NCBI RefSeq assembly: GCF_010092985.1
Contig: NZ_CP048106.1
Coordinates: forward strand, 4,192,001 to 4,256,000
Origin: Pontibacter pudoricolor
Lineage (GTDB): Bacteria; Bacteroidota; Bacteroidia; Cytophagales; Hymenobacteraceae
Direction: 5' to 3'
DNA length: 64,000 nt
In this document: piece after piece, positions 24,140-63,664 of the stretch
Layout of the letters: the number at the start of each line of letters is the position of its first letter
How positions within the stretch are numbered: position 1 is the stretch's first letter
Translations under genes and position numbers: made by a program
The notes under the pieces: generated by a model
Databases searched by the model: none
Seen by the model: the letters and a program-made list of their open reading frames with translations, nothing else
Told to the model about the DNA's origin: nothing

Positions 24140-26224
24140 CTAAAACTTATACCTAACCTGCGCTTTCACATCAGACCTTCTTGATCCAACTATAGTTTCC
24201 AGTCCAGAGCCGATGGTATCAACATTTCTATAGTTGGTGATGCCGTATTTTACCCACACATCCAGGTCTCGGACTAACTGAAACTGCAGCAACGCATAAA
24301 CCCGCGTGCCTCTGCCGCTTAGCGCCGGAATGGAGAATGCATACAGTACATCGCGCTCGTACACATACTGGCGGGTATCGTAACTGTCCGTATCAAAGAT
24401 GGCATAGCGGGTACTTAGCCGGATATTTTTGAAACTATAGTTTATGTCTTGGGCTATGAGGTAACCGGTTTGCTTTGGAGCTTCGTGCGCATAACTGCTG
24501 AATTGTACACGACTTTTTAAACTGAGAGCTGGCGTTGGTGAGAATTCGTAGTAGAGTAAATAATTGCGGCGCAATGCTTGTGCCACATAATCTACTATCG
24601 TTGTGGTGTTGTTTGGGGCGTTCAGGCCTTTGCTTTCGGTCCGGAACTGGCCGTAGAGAGCGCTCTGGCGGTTGGGCTTAAAGTAAAGCCGCACCAGGTA
24701 TTCGTCGCCGTAAGATGGGGCATCTACGCGGTACCGCAGCCACGGAAAGGTAAAGCGGTCGTAGTAGGCCGTTATTTCCCAGCGGGCTATGGGTTTAAGT
24801 TTGATGCCGGTGTAAAAACCACGCTCGTTAATGTTCCGGCTTCCTTCACCAAAAGCACCGCCATACAAACTATGGAAATCGCGTGAATAGTACCGGTACA
24901 ACATAGCTACTTCGGCTTTGTTAGAGAGATTCGCGATCAAACCATTTACACTGCCCATGCCACCGCTTTTGCTCATAGCCGTTTCCCCGAACAGGTACAC
25001 GTTTTGCCAGGTAAAACTATAGTTGGCGCCGGCGGTATAGTTGTTGCTACCGTTAAACTCGAATCGCTGGTAAGGGGCGTCCGTCTTTTTGATGGGCGAA
25101 CTATAGTTGGTGCCGACAGCGGTAAAGCCAACTGTAAAAGCCTGTTTCTGGTACTGCAAACTGCTGCCGAATATCTGCTCCCGCACGCGGCCCTTGTTAG
25201 CCAGCTCAGTTGCTGTTCTGTGAAATCCGGAAGTCTGGATGCCGGTAAAGGATTCGCTGAAATCAGAGATGGTATCAGCTTGTAAATTTGCGTCGGTTCG
25301 TTTAGTGGAGTAGAAGTCGGTTATGTTCAGATTGTCTTTCAGTTTGTAAGTAACCGCCGCACCCCTGAAAAAGACAGACTCCAAAACTGAACTATAAGGC
25401 CGTATGCCCAGGTTTGCGCGGCTGAGCGTGGTTATCGTTTCGCTGCCCTTGCCCACGCTGTACCCCGACGACAACTGCAATCCCTGTCCGATCTGTAATT
25501 GATAATCGCCTATAGCTATAGTTTTGAACCTGCCTTTGTTGTAGAGCTGGAAATGTGCCGTGTAAAAATCGAACCCATAACGCCGTGTGTCGGGGTCCCA
25601 GGTAAACGCTTCTCCGGCATCTTTCTCGGCAGTTATGCCTAAACTATAGTCCTGAGCCACACTGTTGCGGTAACGCATAAATATCTTGTCGGGCGAACCC
25701 AGGTAGCGGCTCTGCGACCGGCTACTGCTATCAACCGAACTATAACCGCGACGTTGCTGCAATGTCCGTTCGTAACGGATTATAAGGGCGTTGTTGTCTT
25801 CCCCGATCATTCGTTGCCAAAGCGGGCGCGTATCAGCATACAAGCCAGCATCATCCACTTTAACAAATGGCAGCAACTGGTAAATGGTGATCATGTCGAA
25901 ACCAGGGATGGCCTGCAGTTCGTAAATGCTGAGGAGCTTGCCGTTGTCCTGGATGTGCTGGAAAAACGAAGCGATCTGCGGGCGTGAGAGTATAAACAGC
26001 GAAGCCAGTTCTTCGGGTGTGGTATTGTTAAGGTCGATGGGTTGCTGGTAATACTGGAAAAGTGTTTCGTACAGGTCTTCGTAAGAAATGTTCTCATCTT
26101 CCTGCTGCGAAAAAAGCTCCTGTACAAACAGGTCGAAATCTATCGTTTGGCGCGGGTAATTCTGAGCTTGTACCTGCGAGATAATGCAGAAAATCAGCAA
26201 CAGTACAACTATAGCCCGCATCAT
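24140..26224 (-). CDS. Outer-membrane barrel with N-terminal helix-hairpin-helix motifs
   Basis: After a signal peptide (ending QVQAQ) the first ~160 residues are helical and hold two ComEA-like helix-hairpin-helix units (IDLNNTTPEELASLFILS and IYELQAIPGFDMITI). The rest, to residue 694, is rich in alternating strands (for example YDFYTAHFQLYNKGRF, LSSGYSVGKG, YRYDYRVD-like) and ends in KAQVRYKF, like an outer-membrane barrel. Such HhH-barrel proteins are common in Bacteroidota, and their role, sometimes guessed as DNA or cell-surface related, is unproven. It follows the PorQ-like gene with almost no gap, so the two are one operon. Confidence 0.8.
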   Translation of the reverse strand: MMRAIVVLLLIFCIISQVQAQNYPRQTIDFDLFVQELFSQQEDENISYEDLYETLFQYYQQPIDLNNTTPEELASLFILSRPQIASFFQHIQDNGKLLSIYELQAIPGFDMITIYQLLPFVKVDDAGLYADTRPLWQRMIGEDNNALIIRYERTLQQRRGYSSVDSSSRSQSRYLGSPDKIFMRYRNSVAQDYSLGITAEKDAGEAFTWDPDTRRYGFDFYTAHFQLYNKGRFKTIAIGDYQLQIGQGLQLSSGYSVGKGSETITTLSRANLGIRPYSSVLESVFFRGAAVTYKLKDNLNITDFYSTKRTDANLQADTISDFSESFTGIQTSGFHRTATELANKGRVREQIFGSSLQYQKQAFTVGFTAVGTNYSSPIKKTDAPYQRFEFNGSNNYTAGANYSFTWQNVYLFGETAMSKSGGMGSVNGLIANLSNKAEVAMLYRYYSRDFHSLYGGAFGEGSRNINERGFYTGIKLKPIARWEITAYYDRFTFPWLRYRVDAPSYGDEYLVRLYFKPNRQSALYGQFRTESKGLNAPNNTTTIVDYVAQALRRNYLLYYEFSPTPALSLKSRVQFSSYAHEAPKQTGYLIAQDINYSFKNIRLSTRYAIFDTDSYDTRQYVYERDVLYAFSIPALSGRGTRVYALLQFQLVRDLDVWVKYGITNYRNVDTIGSGLETIVGSRRSDVKAQVRYKF

Positions 26225-26225
26225 A

Positions 26226-27071
26226 TTACAGTGAATTTACAGGGGTTGAAACTATAGCCGCCCTCCCGAAACTATAGCTTACCGACAAATGGTGGCTGTT
26301 GCCCAGGTGCGTGGCATTGCCGAAGGCATAATCAACTATAAACTGCCGGGCCACAAAGCCGGCGCCAAAGTTGAGCGTGTTAGTAAGCGACTGAAAACCA
26401 CTGCGAAGTATGAATTTATCTGGAAGCAGCTGATACTCGATGCCAGCTTTAAATGTGGCGTTATGGTCGATGCTTTTTTCGGTTTCGGCTAACAGTAAAA
26501 GCTTTTTGTAAGGTGTGTAGCTAATGCCGGCTTTCATAATGGTGGGTAACCGTTCGTCTTCGAAGTCAGAGAGTTTTGCCTGGTTCAGGTTGTATGCGTG
26601 TGCACCGAAGTAAAGGCCCGGCACAATTTCGGCCTGCCCGCCTAGAGCTATAGTTGCCGTTTTGCGACTGCCGTAGCCTTGCACTGTTACCTGCCAGATG
26701 TCGGCTTTTACACCCAAACTAAATTGACCTAGTTTATGGGCAGCGCCCAGCCCGATGTGTTGCCGGTTGTATAGTTCGTCGCCAAACCTGCTCAGGCTAA
26801 TGCCATACACGCCATATTTTGAAGTTGGATAAACACCCAGAAGCGCTACGGTTGTAAATGCCCGTACACCAAATCGGTTCTCGGCATAAGCTCCGGCTTG
26901 TGGTTGCGTGAGCCCGGCCATGCCAGCTACGTTGTTGTGTAGCGCCCAAAGGTCGGGTATGGTTACGGAGGCGTTGCCAAGTGCGGCGGCTCGGGCACCA
27001 AACGGCACATCAGCTTGCGCCTTTACAAGGAAAGGGAACAGGAGAAAAAGGCAATATAAACTATAGCGCAG
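26226..27071 (-). CDS. PorV/PorQ-family outer-membrane protein with non-ATG start
   Basis: Family signs are DVPFGARAAALGNASVTIPDLWALHNNVAGMAGL and a barrel-like remainder ending in SVSYSFGRA; PorQ/PorV relatives anchor type IX secretion. The first in-frame standard start is GTG at 27008, but the frame continues upstream and encodes a fine signal peptide (RYSLYCLFLLFPFLVKAQA). No in-frame ATG, GTG or TTG lies between the stop above and GTG 27008; I place the start at CTG 27071, though a mutated or miscalled start codon is equally possible. The stop at 26226 is two bases from the next gene's ATG. Function in secretion is inferred from family only. Confidence 0.7.
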   Translation of the reverse strand: MRYSLYCLFLLFPFLVKAQADVPFGARAAALGNASVTIPDLWALHNNVAGMAGLTQPQAGAYAENRFGVRAFTTVALLGVYPTSKYGVYGISLSRFGDELYNRQHIGLGAAHKLGQFSLGVKADIWQVTVQGYGSRKTATIALGGQAEIVPGLYFGAHAYNLNQAKLSDFEDERLPTIMKAGISYTPYKKLLLLAETEKSIDHNATFKAGIEYQLLPDKFILRSGFQSLTNTLNFGAGFVARQFIVDYAFGNATHLGNSHHLSVSYSFGRAAIVSTPVNSL

Positions 27072-27195
27072 TAAAGCTATCCCATCCGTAAGGCTTTAAC
27101 AGTTAGTGAAATAGGGCTTACGGAAGGATGTTAATTAAGTTAGAATTTAAGGTTTATGATGCTGGGGATTTGTATATCAGGATTTGCAGGATTTA

Positions 27196-27493
27196 AAAGA
27201 ATGTAGAGACGCAATACTTTGCGTCGTTTTTGTCTGAATCAGGATTTACAGGATTTAAGGATTAGCAGGATGCTTATCGTAATTTATGCTTGCTCCTCCT
27301 GCTTAACCTGGCGCCGGTATCCCATTGGTGCCGCACAGTGGGCGCGAGTCTCCGGACGCGCTGGGCTATAGTTGCAGCGTAAAGGCCAATCCTGAGCCAG
27401 ACCTATAGTTCTATAGCGGAGACGCAAAATATTGCGTCTCTACCATCCGCCAAAATCCCATTAATCTACGGTTCAGACATTCTTACTCCAGCC
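27196..27493. repeat. ~297-bp inverted repeat, left arm flanking the GH20 gene
   Basis: This segment is the reverse complement of 29942-30240 with only about ten differences by eye (roughly 97% identity), including a perfect run of more than 100 bases. Each arm contains shorter palindromes, for example GAGACGCAAAATATTGCGTCTC, and a GGTTCAGAC end motif seen in other gaps. The arms enclose just one gene, the hexosaminidase. Confidence 0.9.
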
Positions 27494-27521
27494 TAATCCT
27501 TAAATCTTAAAGATCTTAATT

Positions 27522-29849
27522 CTAGTCCACCACCACTTCATCCACAAACAGCCATGCAGTTTTGCCGGCGGAGCGGTGGTTTGGCGGGCAGACTTTAATA
27601 TTTCGCGCCACTACTTTCACGAAACGGGCTTTAACAGGAGTAAGCTCAGCGGTAAATGTTTGTGTAAAAATGCCGCCTTTTAACGGGTCAGTGGTGTTGG
27701 CTATAGTCTTAACGGTTTTGTACTTTTTACCATCTTCCGAAACAAAAAACTCGAGCTGCGTTGGCAGGAAAATATTGGCCAGCATGTTCTGTAAATGTGA
27801 GCTGCTGATGCGGTTTATAGTTTTGGTTTGCTCTAAGTCGATTACGGTTTCGAAGTCGGTGCCGGAAAAGCCGAGCCACTGGCCATCCGATTGGTTTAGC
27901 GAGCCGCTTAACCCATTAACTATAGTTGCGCCGCCCATTGCCGGGAAATAACGGCTGGGGTTGTTCTGTAATTTTGATGGTCGTGCAAAGGCATTATGTA
28001 TAGTCAGGGTGATAGTGGTTGGTTCGTCCATCAGTTTGCCATCCATAAAGGACGCCGCTTTTATAGTTGCCGACTTGTTAACTGTAAATGGCCTGGTGTA
28101 AAGTTGAGATGCTGTGGTAGGAGCGGAGCCATCCAATGTGTAAAACACCTGCGTGCCGGCGGCATCCGACGTAAAAGTTATGGTCGCAGAGTGCTGTAAA
28201 GTATCTATAGTTGCCTGTTGTTTTACCTGGTAGGTGCTGGTACTATAGTTTATGCCTAAGGCTTCGTAGCGCTTATATTGCTGTTGCATACGTTGTGCAA
28301 AGTTCTGCCAGTTCTTGTTTTCCGGCTTAGTCCAGAACACTTCGGAAGCGGCTGCAATACGTGGGAACAGCATATATTCTACCTGTTCGAAAGTCGGGAT
28401 GTATTCGGTCCAGAGATTGGCTTGCGCGCCGATTATGAAACGTTTCTCGGATGGGGTTAACTTGTCGGGCGTAGGCTTGAAACTATAGACTTTACTGAGT
28501 GGCGTGTAACCCCCAAATGCCAGCGGCTCCAGCTGCTGATTTCCCTGGTAATAATCGAAGTATAAATGCGAAGTTGGGGTCATCACCACGCCGTGTTGTT
28601 GTTCGGCAGCTTTAATGCCACCCGCTGTTCCACGCCACGACATTACCAGTGCATTGTTAGGCAGCCCGCCATCCAGTATTTCATCCCAGCCTATAATGCG
28701 TTTGTCTTTCGTTTTGAGGAACTTCCCGATGCGGTTGATGAAGTAGGTCTGCAGTTCGTTCTCGTTTTTCAGGTTTTCGGAAGCAATTTTGGCCTGGCAT
28801 TTCGGGCAGGCTTTCCAGCGGGTTTTAGGTACTTCGTCGCCGCCAATGTGTATTACCTGGCCCGGGAAAAGGGCTGAAACTTCACTCAGCACGTCTTCCA
28901 GGAAACTATAGGTTTGCTCGTTGCCGGCACAGAACACGTCTTCAAAAATGCCCCAGGCTCGCTCTGTTTTAAAAGGCCCACCAGTGCAGCTCAGTTCCGG
29001 GTAAGCAGCCAGGGCGGCCAGCGCATGACCCGGCATTTCTATCTCCGGAACTATCGTTATGTTTCTTTCCGAAGCATATTGCACCACTTCCCTTATCTCG
29101 TCCTGTGTATAGTAACCGCCATTTTTTTTGCCGTCGAACTGCTGCGGGCGTTCCAGCGCATGGCCAACTATAGTTCCGTCGCGCCAACCGCCGACTTCAG
29201 TTAGTTTCGGGTATTTTTTGATCTCGATGCGCCAGCCCTGGTCGTCGGTCAGGTGCCAGTGGAAGGTGTTGAGTTTGTGCATCGCCATGTAATCGATGTA
29301 CTTTTTTATATCCGAAACCGGGAAGAAATGACGCACCACATCCAAATGCAATCCGCGCCAGCTATAGTTTGGTTTATCAGTTATCTCAAGTGCAGGAACA
29401 GAAACGGCAGTAAAATTAAAAGTTGGTGGCAAAAGCTGCTTTATAGTCTGGATGCCCATGCTAATGCCTGCCGGTTGGTTTGCGGAAAGCAGAATTCTGG
29501 CAGGTTGCACCGATAAACTATAGCCTTCGGGCCCAAGTGTGTCGGGGGAGTTGGTAAGGCTGAGGTAAATATAATTTGCAGCTCGTTTTTTAGGTTTTTT
29601 GAAAAACATTTGAGGCTGCTGACCGGTCGCGGTTCTTATAGTTTGCGCCAGTTGCTCGGCTGTAGTTTTCAGAAATTGTTGCTCCGGGTTAATGTATAGT
29701 TTGGTATTGGCATTCAGGATAAACTGGCCTTGCTGTACTGTAATGTGTTGCGGTTTAGGAACTATAGAAATATCCGGTACAGCGCTTTGCTGCGCGGAAG
29801 CCGACAAAATGGTAACTATAAAAACGAGAAGGGTAAGCAGTTTTGGCAT
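27522..29849 (-). CDS. GH20 beta-N-acetylhexosaminidase (chitobiase type)
   Basis: The 775-residue secreted enzyme has a signal peptide (ending ILSASAQ), a GH20 N-terminal domain (GYSLSVQPARILLSANQPAG), and a catalytic barrel at about 160-510. Active-site landmarks are WRGLHLDVVRHFF, FHWHLTDDQGWRIEI, PEIEMPGH and the catalytic pair D338-E339 in HIGGDEVPKTRW. A chitobiase-like C-terminal Ig domain (about 550-640; DAAGTQVFYTLDGSAPT) and a discoidin/F5-8C-type domain (about 650-775) follow. It removes terminal N-acetylglucosamine or galactosamine from chitin fragments or glycans. It is the only gene between two 297-bp inverted repeats. Confidence 0.95.
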   Translation of the reverse strand: MPKLLTLLVFIVTILSASAQQSAVPDISIVPKPQHITVQQGQFILNANTKLYINPEQQFLKTTAEQLAQTIRTATGQQPQMFFKKPKKRAANYIYLSLTNSPDTLGPEGYSLSVQPARILLSANQPAGISMGIQTIKQLLPPTFNFTAVSVPALEITDKPNYSWRGLHLDVVRHFFPVSDIKKYIDYMAMHKLNTFHWHLTDDQGWRIEIKKYPKLTEVGGWRDGTIVGHALERPQQFDGKKNGGYYTQDEIREVVQYASERNITIVPEIEMPGHALAALAAYPELSCTGGPFKTERAWGIFEDVFCAGNEQTYSFLEDVLSEVSALFPGQVIHIGGDEVPKTRWKACPKCQAKIASENLKNENELQTYFINRIGKFLKTKDKRIIGWDEILDGGLPNNALVMSWRGTAGGIKAAEQQHGVVMTPTSHLYFDYYQGNQQLEPLAFGGYTPLSKVYSFKPTPDKLTPSEKRFIIGAQANLWTEYIPTFEQVEYMLFPRIAAASEVFWTKPENKNWQNFAQRMQQQYKRYEALGINYSTSTYQVKQQATIDTLQHSATITFTSDAAGTQVFYTLDGSAPTTASQLYTRPFTVNKSATIKAASFMDGKLMDEPTTITLTIHNAFARPSKLQNNPSRYFPAMGGATIVNGLSGSLNQSDGQWLGFSGTDFETVIDLEQTKTINRISSSHLQNMLANIFLPTQLEFFVSEDGKKYKTVKTIANTTDPLKGGIFTQTFTAELTPVKARFVKVVARNIKVCPPNHRSAGKTAWLFVDEVVVD

Positions 29850-29941
29850 CGGGTAACGGTTTGAGGCTCAAGAATAAGCAGGATAAGTTTAAAATGCCAA
29901 CCCAGACTAAGATTTTTAAGATTGAATTGATGGTGTGATTT

Positions 29942-30240
29942 GGCTGGAGTTAGAATGTCTGAACCGTAGAATAATAGGATTTTGGGGGATGGTAGAGACG
30001 CAATATTTTGCGTCTCCGCTATAGAACTATAGGTCTGGCTCAGGATTGGCCTTTACGCTGCAACTATAGCCCAGCGCGTCCGGAGACTTGCGCCCACTGT
30101 GCAGCACCAATGGGATACCGGCGCCAGGTTAAGCAGGAGGAGCAAGCATAAATTACGATAAGCATCCTGCTAATCCTTAAATCCTGTAAATCCTGATTCA
30201 GACAAAAAAGACGCAAGATATTGCGTCTCTACAATTCTTT
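29942..30240. repeat. ~297-bp inverted repeat, right arm flanking the GH20 gene
   Basis: Reverse-complement partner of 27196-27493. It lies about 90 bases upstream of the hexosaminidase start and may therefore contain or disturb its promoter. No target-site duplication or transposase was seen at either end. Confidence 0.9.
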
Positions 30241-30280
30241 TGATCCATTAAATCTCTATTAATCTGTGGTTCAGACAACA

Positions 30281-30314
30281 AAAAAAGCGCTGAGATTGCT
30301 CCCAGCGCTTTTCT
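30281..30314 (-). terminator. Terminator of the S46 peptidase gene
   Basis: On the minus strand, AAAAGCGCTG and CAGCGCTTTT form a stem around a ten-base loop followed by a T-run of about seven. It lies about 20 bases beyond the peptidase stop. Confidence 0.85.
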
Positions 30315-30331: not shown

Positions 30332-32653
30332 TTAGTCTTTCACCTGAAGTTTAACCTTGGCGTCACCTTTTTTCTTTTCGATCTTGAACTCTGTTTTACC
30401 GGCACGCAGTTTCTCCTGCGCTTCTGTCATTGTTTCGTTCAGTAGTTCAGCCTGTGGTGTTTTAGCTTCTGCTTTCGCAGCGTCGCCGGCACCCGGGCTA
30501 GGTGTGTCTACAATCGTCATCTCGCTTATCAGGTTGTTAGCGCCTGCATATTTATCGATAATGAACAGTACGTAACGCGCATCTACGTTAATGCAACGCT
30601 TATAGTCTGCATCGTAAACAAGGTCACCAGTCATCGCTTCCCAGTTACCGTCGAATGCAAGGCCAGTCAGTTCACCTCTACCGTTAATTACCGGCGAACC
30701 TGAGTTACCACCTGTAATGTCGTTATCCGTGATGAAGTTAACTACCATTTCGCCTTTAGAGTTAGCATAGCGGCCATAGTCTTTTGCTTCGTATAGTTGC
30801 TTTAACTTAGCCGGTACTTCAAACTCCTCGTTGGTTGGGTCTTCCTTCGCCATTAAGCCTTCCATAGTAGTGTAGTAGTTGTATAGTACACCATCCTGCG
30901 GGCTGTAATCTTTAATGGCGCCGTAGCTCAAACGTATCGTTGAGTTTGCATCCGGGTAGTACACAAAGTCAGGGTTCATTTCACGCAAACCGGCTACATA
31001 CAGGCGGCTGGCCGTGTTTAACTTCGCGTTAGCACCAGCCAGTTTAGGGGCGATGTTAGTTGAGTAGTTTTCGATGATAGGCTGCACAATGGCGAAAGCA
31101 GGATCATTCTCCAGTTTCTTGGCAGTAGGGTTTTTCAGGAAGTCCTTCAGTTTTTGCTCCGATACTACAAACGAGTTGCTGTACACGTGGTCAGCCAGTT
31201 TGTTGAAATCGCCTTTGTACTTAGCTACCAGGTTTTTGAAAGCTTCCGGCTGCTGATCTTTCGCGATATCTTCGTAGTAGAACTTCAGCATGGCAGCAAA
31301 CACTTTCTTGTCTGTTGGCATGTTATAGTCTTTAAAGAAGGCATCAACGCGTGGCATTAGGTCTTCAACTGCTTTGTCAACAGCGGCCTTGTCACCACCT
31401 TTCAGGGTTGTATAAAGCGGCATCAGGCGGTAAGCCATCATCAGCGACTCAGTACCTAAAATGGCTTCGTTCAGGTATACAGAGCCCAGGTTGTATTTTG
31501 CGATCTCTTTGTAAGATGCATCAATATCAGAAAGTACGTTGCCGTAAAGGGCTTTGCGCTGCGGATCGTTAGCCCATGCCTGGTATTTTGCTTCGTCAGC
31601 TACTTTGCCTTCAATGGTCTTCATGCGCTTAATGCCTTCGTTCTGACCGATAGAGTATTTGTAGTAGTTAGAAGTAGAGGCATATTTAGAGGCATATTTA
31701 ATGCGGGTTGCATCGCTCTTGTCCATGTCTTCTTTCCAAAGTGCCAGCTTTTTCTCGCGCAGTTTAATACGTGTCTTGTTCAGCTGGTCTACTTCCAGTT
31801 GCAGACCTTGTGAGGTCATGAAACGCTTGGTACGGCCCGGGAAACCGAAAACCATAGAGAAGTCGCCTGGCTCTCTGTCGCCGATGTTTATTGGCAGGTG
31901 GTGCTTCGGGTTGTAAGGAACGTTGTCTTTGCTGTATTTGGCCGGCTTGCCATCTTTGCCCGCATATACACGGAAAACAGAGAAGTCGCCGGTATGGCGT
32001 GGCCACATCCAGTTATCCGTATCGCCGCCGTATTTACCGATTGACGATGGAGGCGTTCCTACCAGACGAACGTCGGTGTAGCGGTTGTAAACGAAAAGGT
32101 AGAACTCGTTGCCGTTAAAGAAATCACGCACATAAGTTACATACTCACCATTGTTGCTGGCTTCTTTAGCTAAAGCCTGCATACGCTGGCCTACTTTCTG
32201 AGCACGTTCTGCTTCCGGTGTGTTGTTATCGATGCCTTCCAGTACTTTTCCTGTCACGTCATCCATACGCACTAAAATATCCACAAAAAGACCTTCGTTC
32301 GGAAGCTCTTCGGCATAGCTCTTAGCCCAGAAACCGTTTGTCAGGTAATCGTTTTCCGGTGTAGAATGCGCCTGTATCTGGCCGTAACCACAGTGGTGGT
32401 TTGTAAGCAACAGACCGTTTTTCGAAACGAACTCACCGGTACAGAAACCACCGAACTGCACGATGGCATCTTTCAGGCTCGAGTTGTTTACAGAGTAAAT
32501 TTCTTCGGCAGTAAGCTGAAGTCCTTTTTTCTGCATATCAGCGTGGTTCAGGCGCTTTATCAGCATCGGCAACCACATACCCTCGTCGGCTTTGGCCGTA
32601 AACGGCACGCTCAGCACAACTAAAAGTAGGAGTGAAAGGATTCTTTTTAACAT
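30332..32653 (-). CDS. S46-family dipeptidyl-peptidase (DPP7/DPP11-type)
   Basis: The 773-residue exported peptidase has a signal peptide (ending FTAKA) and the S46 landmarks: DEGMWLP at the start, catalytic His in LLLTNHHCGYG (85-88) and catalytic Ser651 in ITGGNSGSPV. The residue that separates subtypes in this family is Gly669 in LAFDGNWEAM, as in DPP7 enzymes that prefer hydrophobic P1 residues, whereas DPP11 has Arg. That subtype call is inference from family knowledge. Codon use looks highly biased (strong expression) and CTATAG is absent from the gene. The enzyme releases dipeptides in the periplasm for growth on protein. Confidence 0.93.
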   Translation of the reverse strand: MLKRILSLLLLVVLSVPFTAKADEGMWLPMLIKRLNHADMQKKGLQLTAEEIYSVNNSSLKDAIVQFGGFCTGEFVSKNGLLLTNHHCGYGQIQAHSTPENDYLTNGFWAKSYAEELPNEGLFVDILVRMDDVTGKVLEGIDNNTPEAERAQKVGQRMQALAKEASNNGEYVTYVRDFFNGNEFYLFVYNRYTDVRLVGTPPSSIGKYGGDTDNWMWPRHTGDFSVFRVYAGKDGKPAKYSKDNVPYNPKHHLPINIGDREPGDFSMVFGFPGRTKRFMTSQGLQLEVDQLNKTRIKLREKKLALWKEDMDKSDATRIKYASKYASTSNYYKYSIGQNEGIKRMKTIEGKVADEAKYQAWANDPQRKALYGNVLSDIDASYKEIAKYNLGSVYLNEAILGTESLMMAYRLMPLYTTLKGGDKAAVDKAVEDLMPRVDAFFKDYNMPTDKKVFAAMLKFYYEDIAKDQQPEAFKNLVAKYKGDFNKLADHVYSNSFVVSEQKLKDFLKNPTAKKLENDPAFAIVQPIIENYSTNIAPKLAGANAKLNTASRLYVAGLREMNPDFVYYPDANSTIRLSYGAIKDYSPQDGVLYNYYTTMEGLMAKEDPTNEEFEVPAKLKQLYEAKDYGRYANSKGEMVVNFITDNDITGGNSGSPVINGRGELTGLAFDGNWEAMTGDLVYDADYKRCINVDARYVLFIIDKYAGANNLISEMTIVDTPSPGAGDAAKAEAKTPQAELLNETMTEAQEKLRAGKTEFKIEKKKGDAKVKLQVKD

Positions 32654-63077: not shown

Positions 63078-63664
63078 AAGCTATAGTTTAAAGTTAATAA
63101 TTCTGGCATGAGTCTCCCGGCTCGTGACGTAGGATGGTGTTGAGCCCCCTGACTTACCTGGCCCGGCAGGGACAGGCATTGCAGTAGCAGTTGCTAAAGA
63201 GTTTTATAGTTGGCGTTTAACCCACCCCTACCCCTCCCAAGAGGGGATTTTCGGCTATAATTATAGCTTAGCTATAGTTCTATAGTTACCGTTACGGCTT
63301 TTCCATCTGTCATTTCGACGAAAGGAGAAATCTGAATTAACTATAGTTACAGCCTAAGACCGGACAGGTGGCAACCTGTCCCTGCAAAACCAGCTTATAG
63401 AGACGCAACAGTTTGCGTCTTGTTTTCAGTGGTAATTACTCTAACTATAGGACACATAAGATTCCTCGACTTTGCTCGGAATGACAGAAAGGAAACTATA
63501 GTTATCAGATACAAGCAGGAGCAGAAACCTGGTCCGTATGTTTTGGGGAGCATTGTCAGGTCTGGATCCTGCAAATCAATCCAATCTCCATTAATCTGTA
63601 GTTCAGATTTTTCTCTGCGTTTGAAATAATCAAAACAAAACTATAGTTTAAGCTACGGAACTCC
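63078..63664. repeat. Gap dense in dispersed repeat blocks
   Basis: No gene. Blocks found elsewhere recur here: GGCATGAGTCTCCCGGCTCGTG (63105-63126, cf. 23.87 kb), ACCCACCCCTACCCCTCCCAAGAGG (63220-63244), TCATTTCGACGAAAGGAGAAATCTGA (63309-63334), GGACAGGTGGCAACCTGTCC (63362-63381; one step away from the 10.0 and 46.3 kb palindrome), GAGACGCAACAGTTTGCGTCT (63399) and TTAATCTGTAGTTCAGA (63591). CTATAG is dense, with about seven copies in 560 bases. Confidence 0.8.

Follow-up and report, generated by a model that had tools for sequence, protein, structure and literature searches.

An inverted pair of REPIN/BIME-like intergenic elements flanks a GH20 hexosaminidase gene in Pontibacter pudoricolor

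Results

The GH20 locus and its inverted arms

The window analyzed here is a 64-kb stretch of the 4.34-Mb, single-contig genome of Pontibacter pudoricolor. It contains, on the minus strand, a 775-aa ORF (27522–29849) that matches Glyco_hydro_20 (Pfam, E = 4.4e-124), Glyco_hydro_20b, CHB_HEX_C_1, and F5_F8_type_C, and that is 88% identical to its homologues in P. populi HLY7-15 (G018) and Pontibacter sp. Tf4 (G038). A promoter-like segment, TTGGCA-N18-TATTCT (approximately 29871–29900, minus strand; consensus match only), precedes this GH20 beta-hexosaminidase gene and is conserved among relatives. On the 5′ side, the neighbor is a Peptidase S46 gene (30332–32653, minus strand; ORF and Pfam match), which is followed by a terminator-like hairpin (30281–30314, minus strand) also kept in relatives. 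On the 3′ side are two adjacent ORFs of 260 aa (26226–27008, minus strand) and 694 aa (24140–26224), both kept in relatives and both lacking a Pfam match.

A repeat search of the window found inverted repeats at 27181–27498 and 29937–30254, 94% complementary across 318 nt and ~2.4 kb apart. Within them, a high-identity tract joins arm 1, located 3′ of GH20 (27194–27492, minus strand; core 27305–27450), to arm 2, located 5′ of GH20 (29942–30240, plus strand; core 29986–30131). The two tracts are identical in 289 of 299 columns, with ten substitutions and a single 1-nt indel at the outer edge, and the BLAST E value of one arm against the other (4e-143) means that their likeness is not due to chance. 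The GH20 gene and its promoter-like segment lie between the arms, while the terminator-like hairpin lies outside arm 2. The first-pass annotation of this DNA had reported inverted repeats with about ten differences, a single enclosed hexosaminidase gene, and no transposase or recombinase in the vicinity. All three observations hold: GH20 is the sole gene enclosed, and neither enzyme was found among the ORFs listed at 22–36 kb, with protein families run on the four nearest ORFs.

The arms belong to a dispersed intergenic family

The arm gave 77 matches in its own genome, many of them partial. With a covariance model built on the 145-nt core of the element, full copies were counted in P. pudoricolor (~15), Tf4 (~14), G045 (7), and G009 (~6). 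These matches, together with the identities among own copies, bear out the earlier suggestion that a dispersed MITE- or REP-like element was the source of the arms. The annotation had also named many unrelated copies elsewhere as a sign of a chance pairing of a common repeat. The 77 matches partly agree with this, but the arms are 96–98% alike whereas the next own pair reaches only 89%.

The exact hairpin GTAGAGACGCAA-N4-TTGCGTCTC, which tags the element, occurs 22 times in the own genome, compared to 0 for a reversed-pattern control. It is present in 15 of 296 Bacteroidota genomes from several classes, in up to 83 copies (control 0), and this patchy spread suggests a mobile past. The window also contains another, incomplete copy of the GTAG hairpin at 63398–63425 (86–91% over 23–28 nt).

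None of 37 copies examined was inside a gene: 17 were in convergent gaps, 17 in tandem gaps, and 2 in divergent gaps (one shared slot), with 1 undetermined, so that divergent gaps account for only 2 of the 36 classified copies. REPs are likewise mostly intergenic and 3′ of genes (PMC3733652). By analogy with what is known for REPs, the hairpins of the element might terminate transcripts or shield their 3′ ends.

Anatomy of the element

Each arm is a REPIN/BIME-like intergenic element of ~320 bp that has outer TGTCTGAACC ends and contains two GTAG-tagged hairpins, one inverted with respect to the other. In arm 2, the whole unit is 322 bp long (29956–30277, plus strand) and non-coding, and its ends are imperfect terminal inverted repeats of 35 nt, TGTCTGAACC...GGTTCAGACA, that are 74% alike. 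One GTAG-tagged hairpin stands at each end of the element, GTAG facing outward. In arm 2, the GH20-proximal hairpin is GTAGAGACGCAATATTTTGCGTCTC (29992–30016, plus strand), and the second, inverted one is GTAGAGACGCAATATCTTGCGTCT (30209–30232, minus strand); their counterparts in arm 1 are at 27419–27443 (GH20-proximal, minus strand) and 27203–27225 (inverted, plus strand). The spacer between the hairpins carries further short palindromes, GCGAGTCTGGAGACTCGC and CCGGT-N5-ACCGG (family consensus), as well as CTATAG sites.

As a single strand, the arm 2 element is predicted to form a single long hairpin (−129.5 kcal/mol, z = −8.9). The internal hairpins show a weak signal of compensatory change (57 of 500 shuffles), and no Rfam model matched the element near a gathering score. 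In a search for a target-site duplication, the GH20-flanking slots of relatives were found to hold other repeats or diverged sequence, and no clean empty site.

Search for a cognate transposase

REPs of TnpAREP subclass 2.4 are abundant in Cyanobacteria and Bacteroidetes (PMC6006769), and a RAYT association was considered for the arm element. Among 34 Y1_Tnp loci in Pontibacter, comprising every match in the own genome (5) and the best matches elsewhere in the genus (29), none had GTAGAGACG within 1.5 kb, and the association was rejected. Some GTAG hairpin was near these loci in 8 cases, compared to 2.8 in shuffles, none belonging to the arm-element family. As there are known cases of REPs with no RAYT left (PMC6006769), the missing RAYT lowers the claim of active membership but not that of anatomy. 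The own genome also encodes five GIY-YIG genes, which were considered as mobilizers.

The pair is shared with a related species

In G045, the same family occupies both GH20 slots in the same inverted orientation as the own arms. A single blastn alignment spans element, GH20, and element between the two genomes, and the sequences linking each element to the gene are in register (0 of 500 shuffles as good for both segments). Slot sharing extends to other loci: 7 of 12 other own copies share their intergenic slot with a copy in G038, G045, or G009, mostly in the same orientation as read from the strands, with own_248 and G038_226 as exceptions. As a genome has about a dozen copies but thousands of intergenic gaps, the two GH20 slots are very unlikely to have been hit independently, unless they attract insertions as hot spots. 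The sequence comparison therefore supports an old pair, with two copies probably already in place when this species and G045 diverged.

The closer relatives P. populi and Tf4 carry other repeats in both GH20 slots instead of the arm element, so that an ancestral pair requires losses or replacements. Across these two and three further species, the slots are occupied by other repeats or by a GIY-YIG gene, or are nearly empty, indicating that they turned over in some lineages. The comparison with relatives that had been proposed shows the gene without these arms in P. populi and Tf4 and between a pair of the same family in G045. Orthologous copies are 63–80% alike, generally no more than unrelated family members, so that orthology is not shown by the core sequence alone.

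Other contents of the slots were also recorded. The slot of arm 1, 3′ of GH20, is occupied by a gene for a small GIY-YIG nuclease (Pfam E = 3e-16 to 1e-15) in G038 (L183:4770–5156), G015 (L184:4647–4973), and G009 (L187:2212–2520). In some relatives, these genes are flanked by GTCATTTCGAGC...GAGAAATCT repeats, and gene and repeats together resemble a mobile cassette that makes use of the gap occupied here by arm 1. In G013, that slot measures only ~130 bp. Several other palindrome-rich repeat families, such as CCGCATGTTTAGCGTAGCGTAACTTG and GGCGCGAGCGTCCTCGCTCGTG, fill the slots beside GH20 in relatives (L182, L183, and L187).

Near-identity of the arms

Core identity is 98% for the own GH20 pair, compared to 89% for the next own pair and a mean of 73% for all own pairs; pairwise comparison of own copies found no distant pair at 96–98%. 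Three pairs of full copies, in two genomes, are less than 3 kb apart: the own GH20 pair, the G045 GH20 pair (86%), and a G045 pair around an acyl-CoA dehydrogenase gene (89%; L218:2042–3758), which places a second gene between inverted copies of the same element. All three are inverted, with the GTAG end of the core toward the gene, and in each case the two copies group together as a well-supported clade of their own. The two G045 pairs rank 1 (89%) and 2 (86%) among the 21 pairs of that genome, and the own and G045 GH20 copies cluster by genome rather than by slot.

The ends of the high-identity tract do not coincide with those of the element. On the GH20 side, the tract runs ~14 bp past the TGTCTGAACC end and stops within older, diverged homology (25 of 31 positions and a 9-nt gap, a match reached by 3 of 1000 shuffles). 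At its other end, it falls short of the element end, and the sequences beyond resemble each other no more than expected by chance (277 of 1000 shuffles). That older homology is clear on one side only, and that the AAGATTTTTAAGATTTAA module of this side recurs in other slots, both speak against the conversion reading given next.

Because the three close pairs are mutual nearest relatives and the tract ends on one side in older diverged homology, recent gene conversion between inverted neighbors is the most likely cause of the ~97% arm identity, with a probability that we put at about 0.7. The first-pass annotation had read the high identity as a recent event or an exchange between the arms. Exchange is indeed the best reading, whereas recent insertion of both arms is disfavored.

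These results suggest the following history. To judge from their anatomy, elements of the REP-doublet kind presumably owed their spread to a RAYT-like Y1 HuH transposase acting in trans, although no cognate enzyme was found. Two copies would have entered the intergenic slots on both sides of GH20 before this species and G045 separated, as the colinear shared slots indicate. Later, homologous recombination that left no lasting crossover probably overwrote ~300 bp of one copy with the sequence of the other, and the enclosed GH20 gene would have stayed where it was. The elements now appear to be mostly inherited in place, 3′ of genes.

Alternative explanations

The near-identity could also have arisen if one arm had recently been copied from the other, through local transposition or inverted template switching, with the G045 pair having formed independently. 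The gap between the 98% core identity and the 73% family mean, the lack of elements in both slots of the closest relatives (G018 and G038), and the fact that all close pairs are both inverted and alike would fit such a recent duplication. However, it has to account for G045, where the family, the slots, the orientation, and the register of the linking sequence are all the same. Moreover, a transposed copy would start and stop at the element ends, which a conversion tract need not do, and the tract overruns the TGTCTGAACC end on one side and falls short on the other, although template switching could yield such borders. We therefore prefer conversion and regard a recent duplication as unlikely. 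The G045 pair, in register and identically oriented, also speaks against the annotation's proposal of two independent insertions, if both were recent. That a common repeat landed here twice by chance, and that the arms match merely because the family is young, is hardly credible: the family is abundant, but it is old and diverged (mean 73%), its slots are common to several species, and 98% is extreme among all own pairs.

The annotation had further proposed that recombination between the arms would flip the gene with its promoter region. The geometry does allow RecA-type inversion, and in Wolbachia, inverted repeats of insertion sequences have been documented to recombine ectopically and to undergo conversion (PMC3004938). 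Expression of GH20 could then vary by phase variation. Yet GH20 has the same orientation relative to its neighbors in all seven species compared, including P. populi and Tf4, and the position of the promoter-like segment between the arms means that inversion would carry gene and likely promoter together. A phase switch was rejected on these two grounds, and the flip does not stand as a functional event. In addition, no recombinase gene was recognized nearby (among the ORFs and families covered above), and the same elements are present as single copies at a dozen other loci. An invertible segment that varies expression is thus unsupported, and we consider it very improbable, although inversion may occur rarely. 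Slightly less so, but still quite improbable, is a wider reading that covers the inverted REPIN pairs around GH20 in two species and around the acyl-CoA dehydrogenase gene in G045. Recombination would then recur on the time scale of species and maintain the likeness of each pair, and the single gene inside would flip back and forth within populations.

An over-represented palindrome in the same genome

Independently of the arms, the palindrome AACTATAGTT was found in 1164 copies in the own genome, compared to 8 for the reversed pattern, and in 29 copies in the window (0.1 expected), both inside and outside ORFs. About half of the CTATAG sites of the window are within coding sequence, and 8–9 of the 10 GH20 sites are kept in the two closest relatives. 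Among 50 Pontibacter genomes, 5 have more than 1000 copies of AACTATAGTT, three have 104–330, and the other 42 are at or near background; 100 genomes from five other genera of the family are at background. By analogy, AACTATAGTT looks like a clade-restricted counterpart of cyanobacterial HIP1; a literature search found no paper that names it. With more than 1000 repeats in one group of Pontibacter genomes only, it is a more surprising lead than the arm pair.

Discussion

The arm pair is an ordinary repeat pair of the REPIN/BIME kind and not evidence for a gene-flipping switch. The GH20 locus hence offers a worked example of REP-doublet biology in Bacteroidota instead of a suspected genetic switch. 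Elements stay in shared intergenic slots from species to species even as their sequences are overwritten, probably via exchange with nearby copies, and near-identical inverted repeats need not mean recent insertions or switches.

In Bacteroides, invertible promoters and other phase-variable segments place gene-sized DNA between inverted repeats. The arms described here are far longer than recombinase sites and belong to a dispersed family. Neither a dedicated recombinase nearby nor a promoter that inversion would part from its gene was seen, and no inverted form occurred in the species compared.

The element resembles MITEs in being short (322 bp in arm 2), non-coding, and bounded by imperfect terminal inverted repeats, but it differs from them in its strong internal palindromes, and no parent transposon was found.

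With GTAG REPs and REPINs, it shares GT[AG]G at the foot of the palindrome, an intergenic location mostly 3′ of genes, and inverted doublets able to fold. The likeness to GTAG-tagged palindromic repeats includes the GTAG followed by a ~9-bp stem and a 4-nt loop, and the outward GTAG ends of a head-head dimer (PMC3733652). That 2013 survey listed such repeats in Proteobacteria, Cyanobacteria, Chloroflexi, and PVC, and did not list Bacteroidetes (PMC3733652). Canonical GT[AG]G-foot hairpins of subclass 2.4 are, however, known in Bacteroidetes alongside Y1 HuH enzymes (PMC6006769), from which the arm element differs in that 0 of 34 Pontibacter Y1 loci have its hairpin inside 1.5 kb. REPs often exceed 100 per genome, compared to 77 partial matches, ~15 full copies, and 22 perfect hairpins here. 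Finally, the REPINs, or REP doublets, of Pseudomonas fluorescens SBW25 (PMC3116915) also consist of an inverted pair of REP hairpins and a spacer forming one long hairpin, and are likewise intergenic and dispersed. The spacer is ~190 bp here, whereas common inter-REP spacings there are 71 and 110 bp, and SBW25 has hundreds of copies compared to ~15 full copies in P. pudoricolor, where no transposase gene was found next to a copy.
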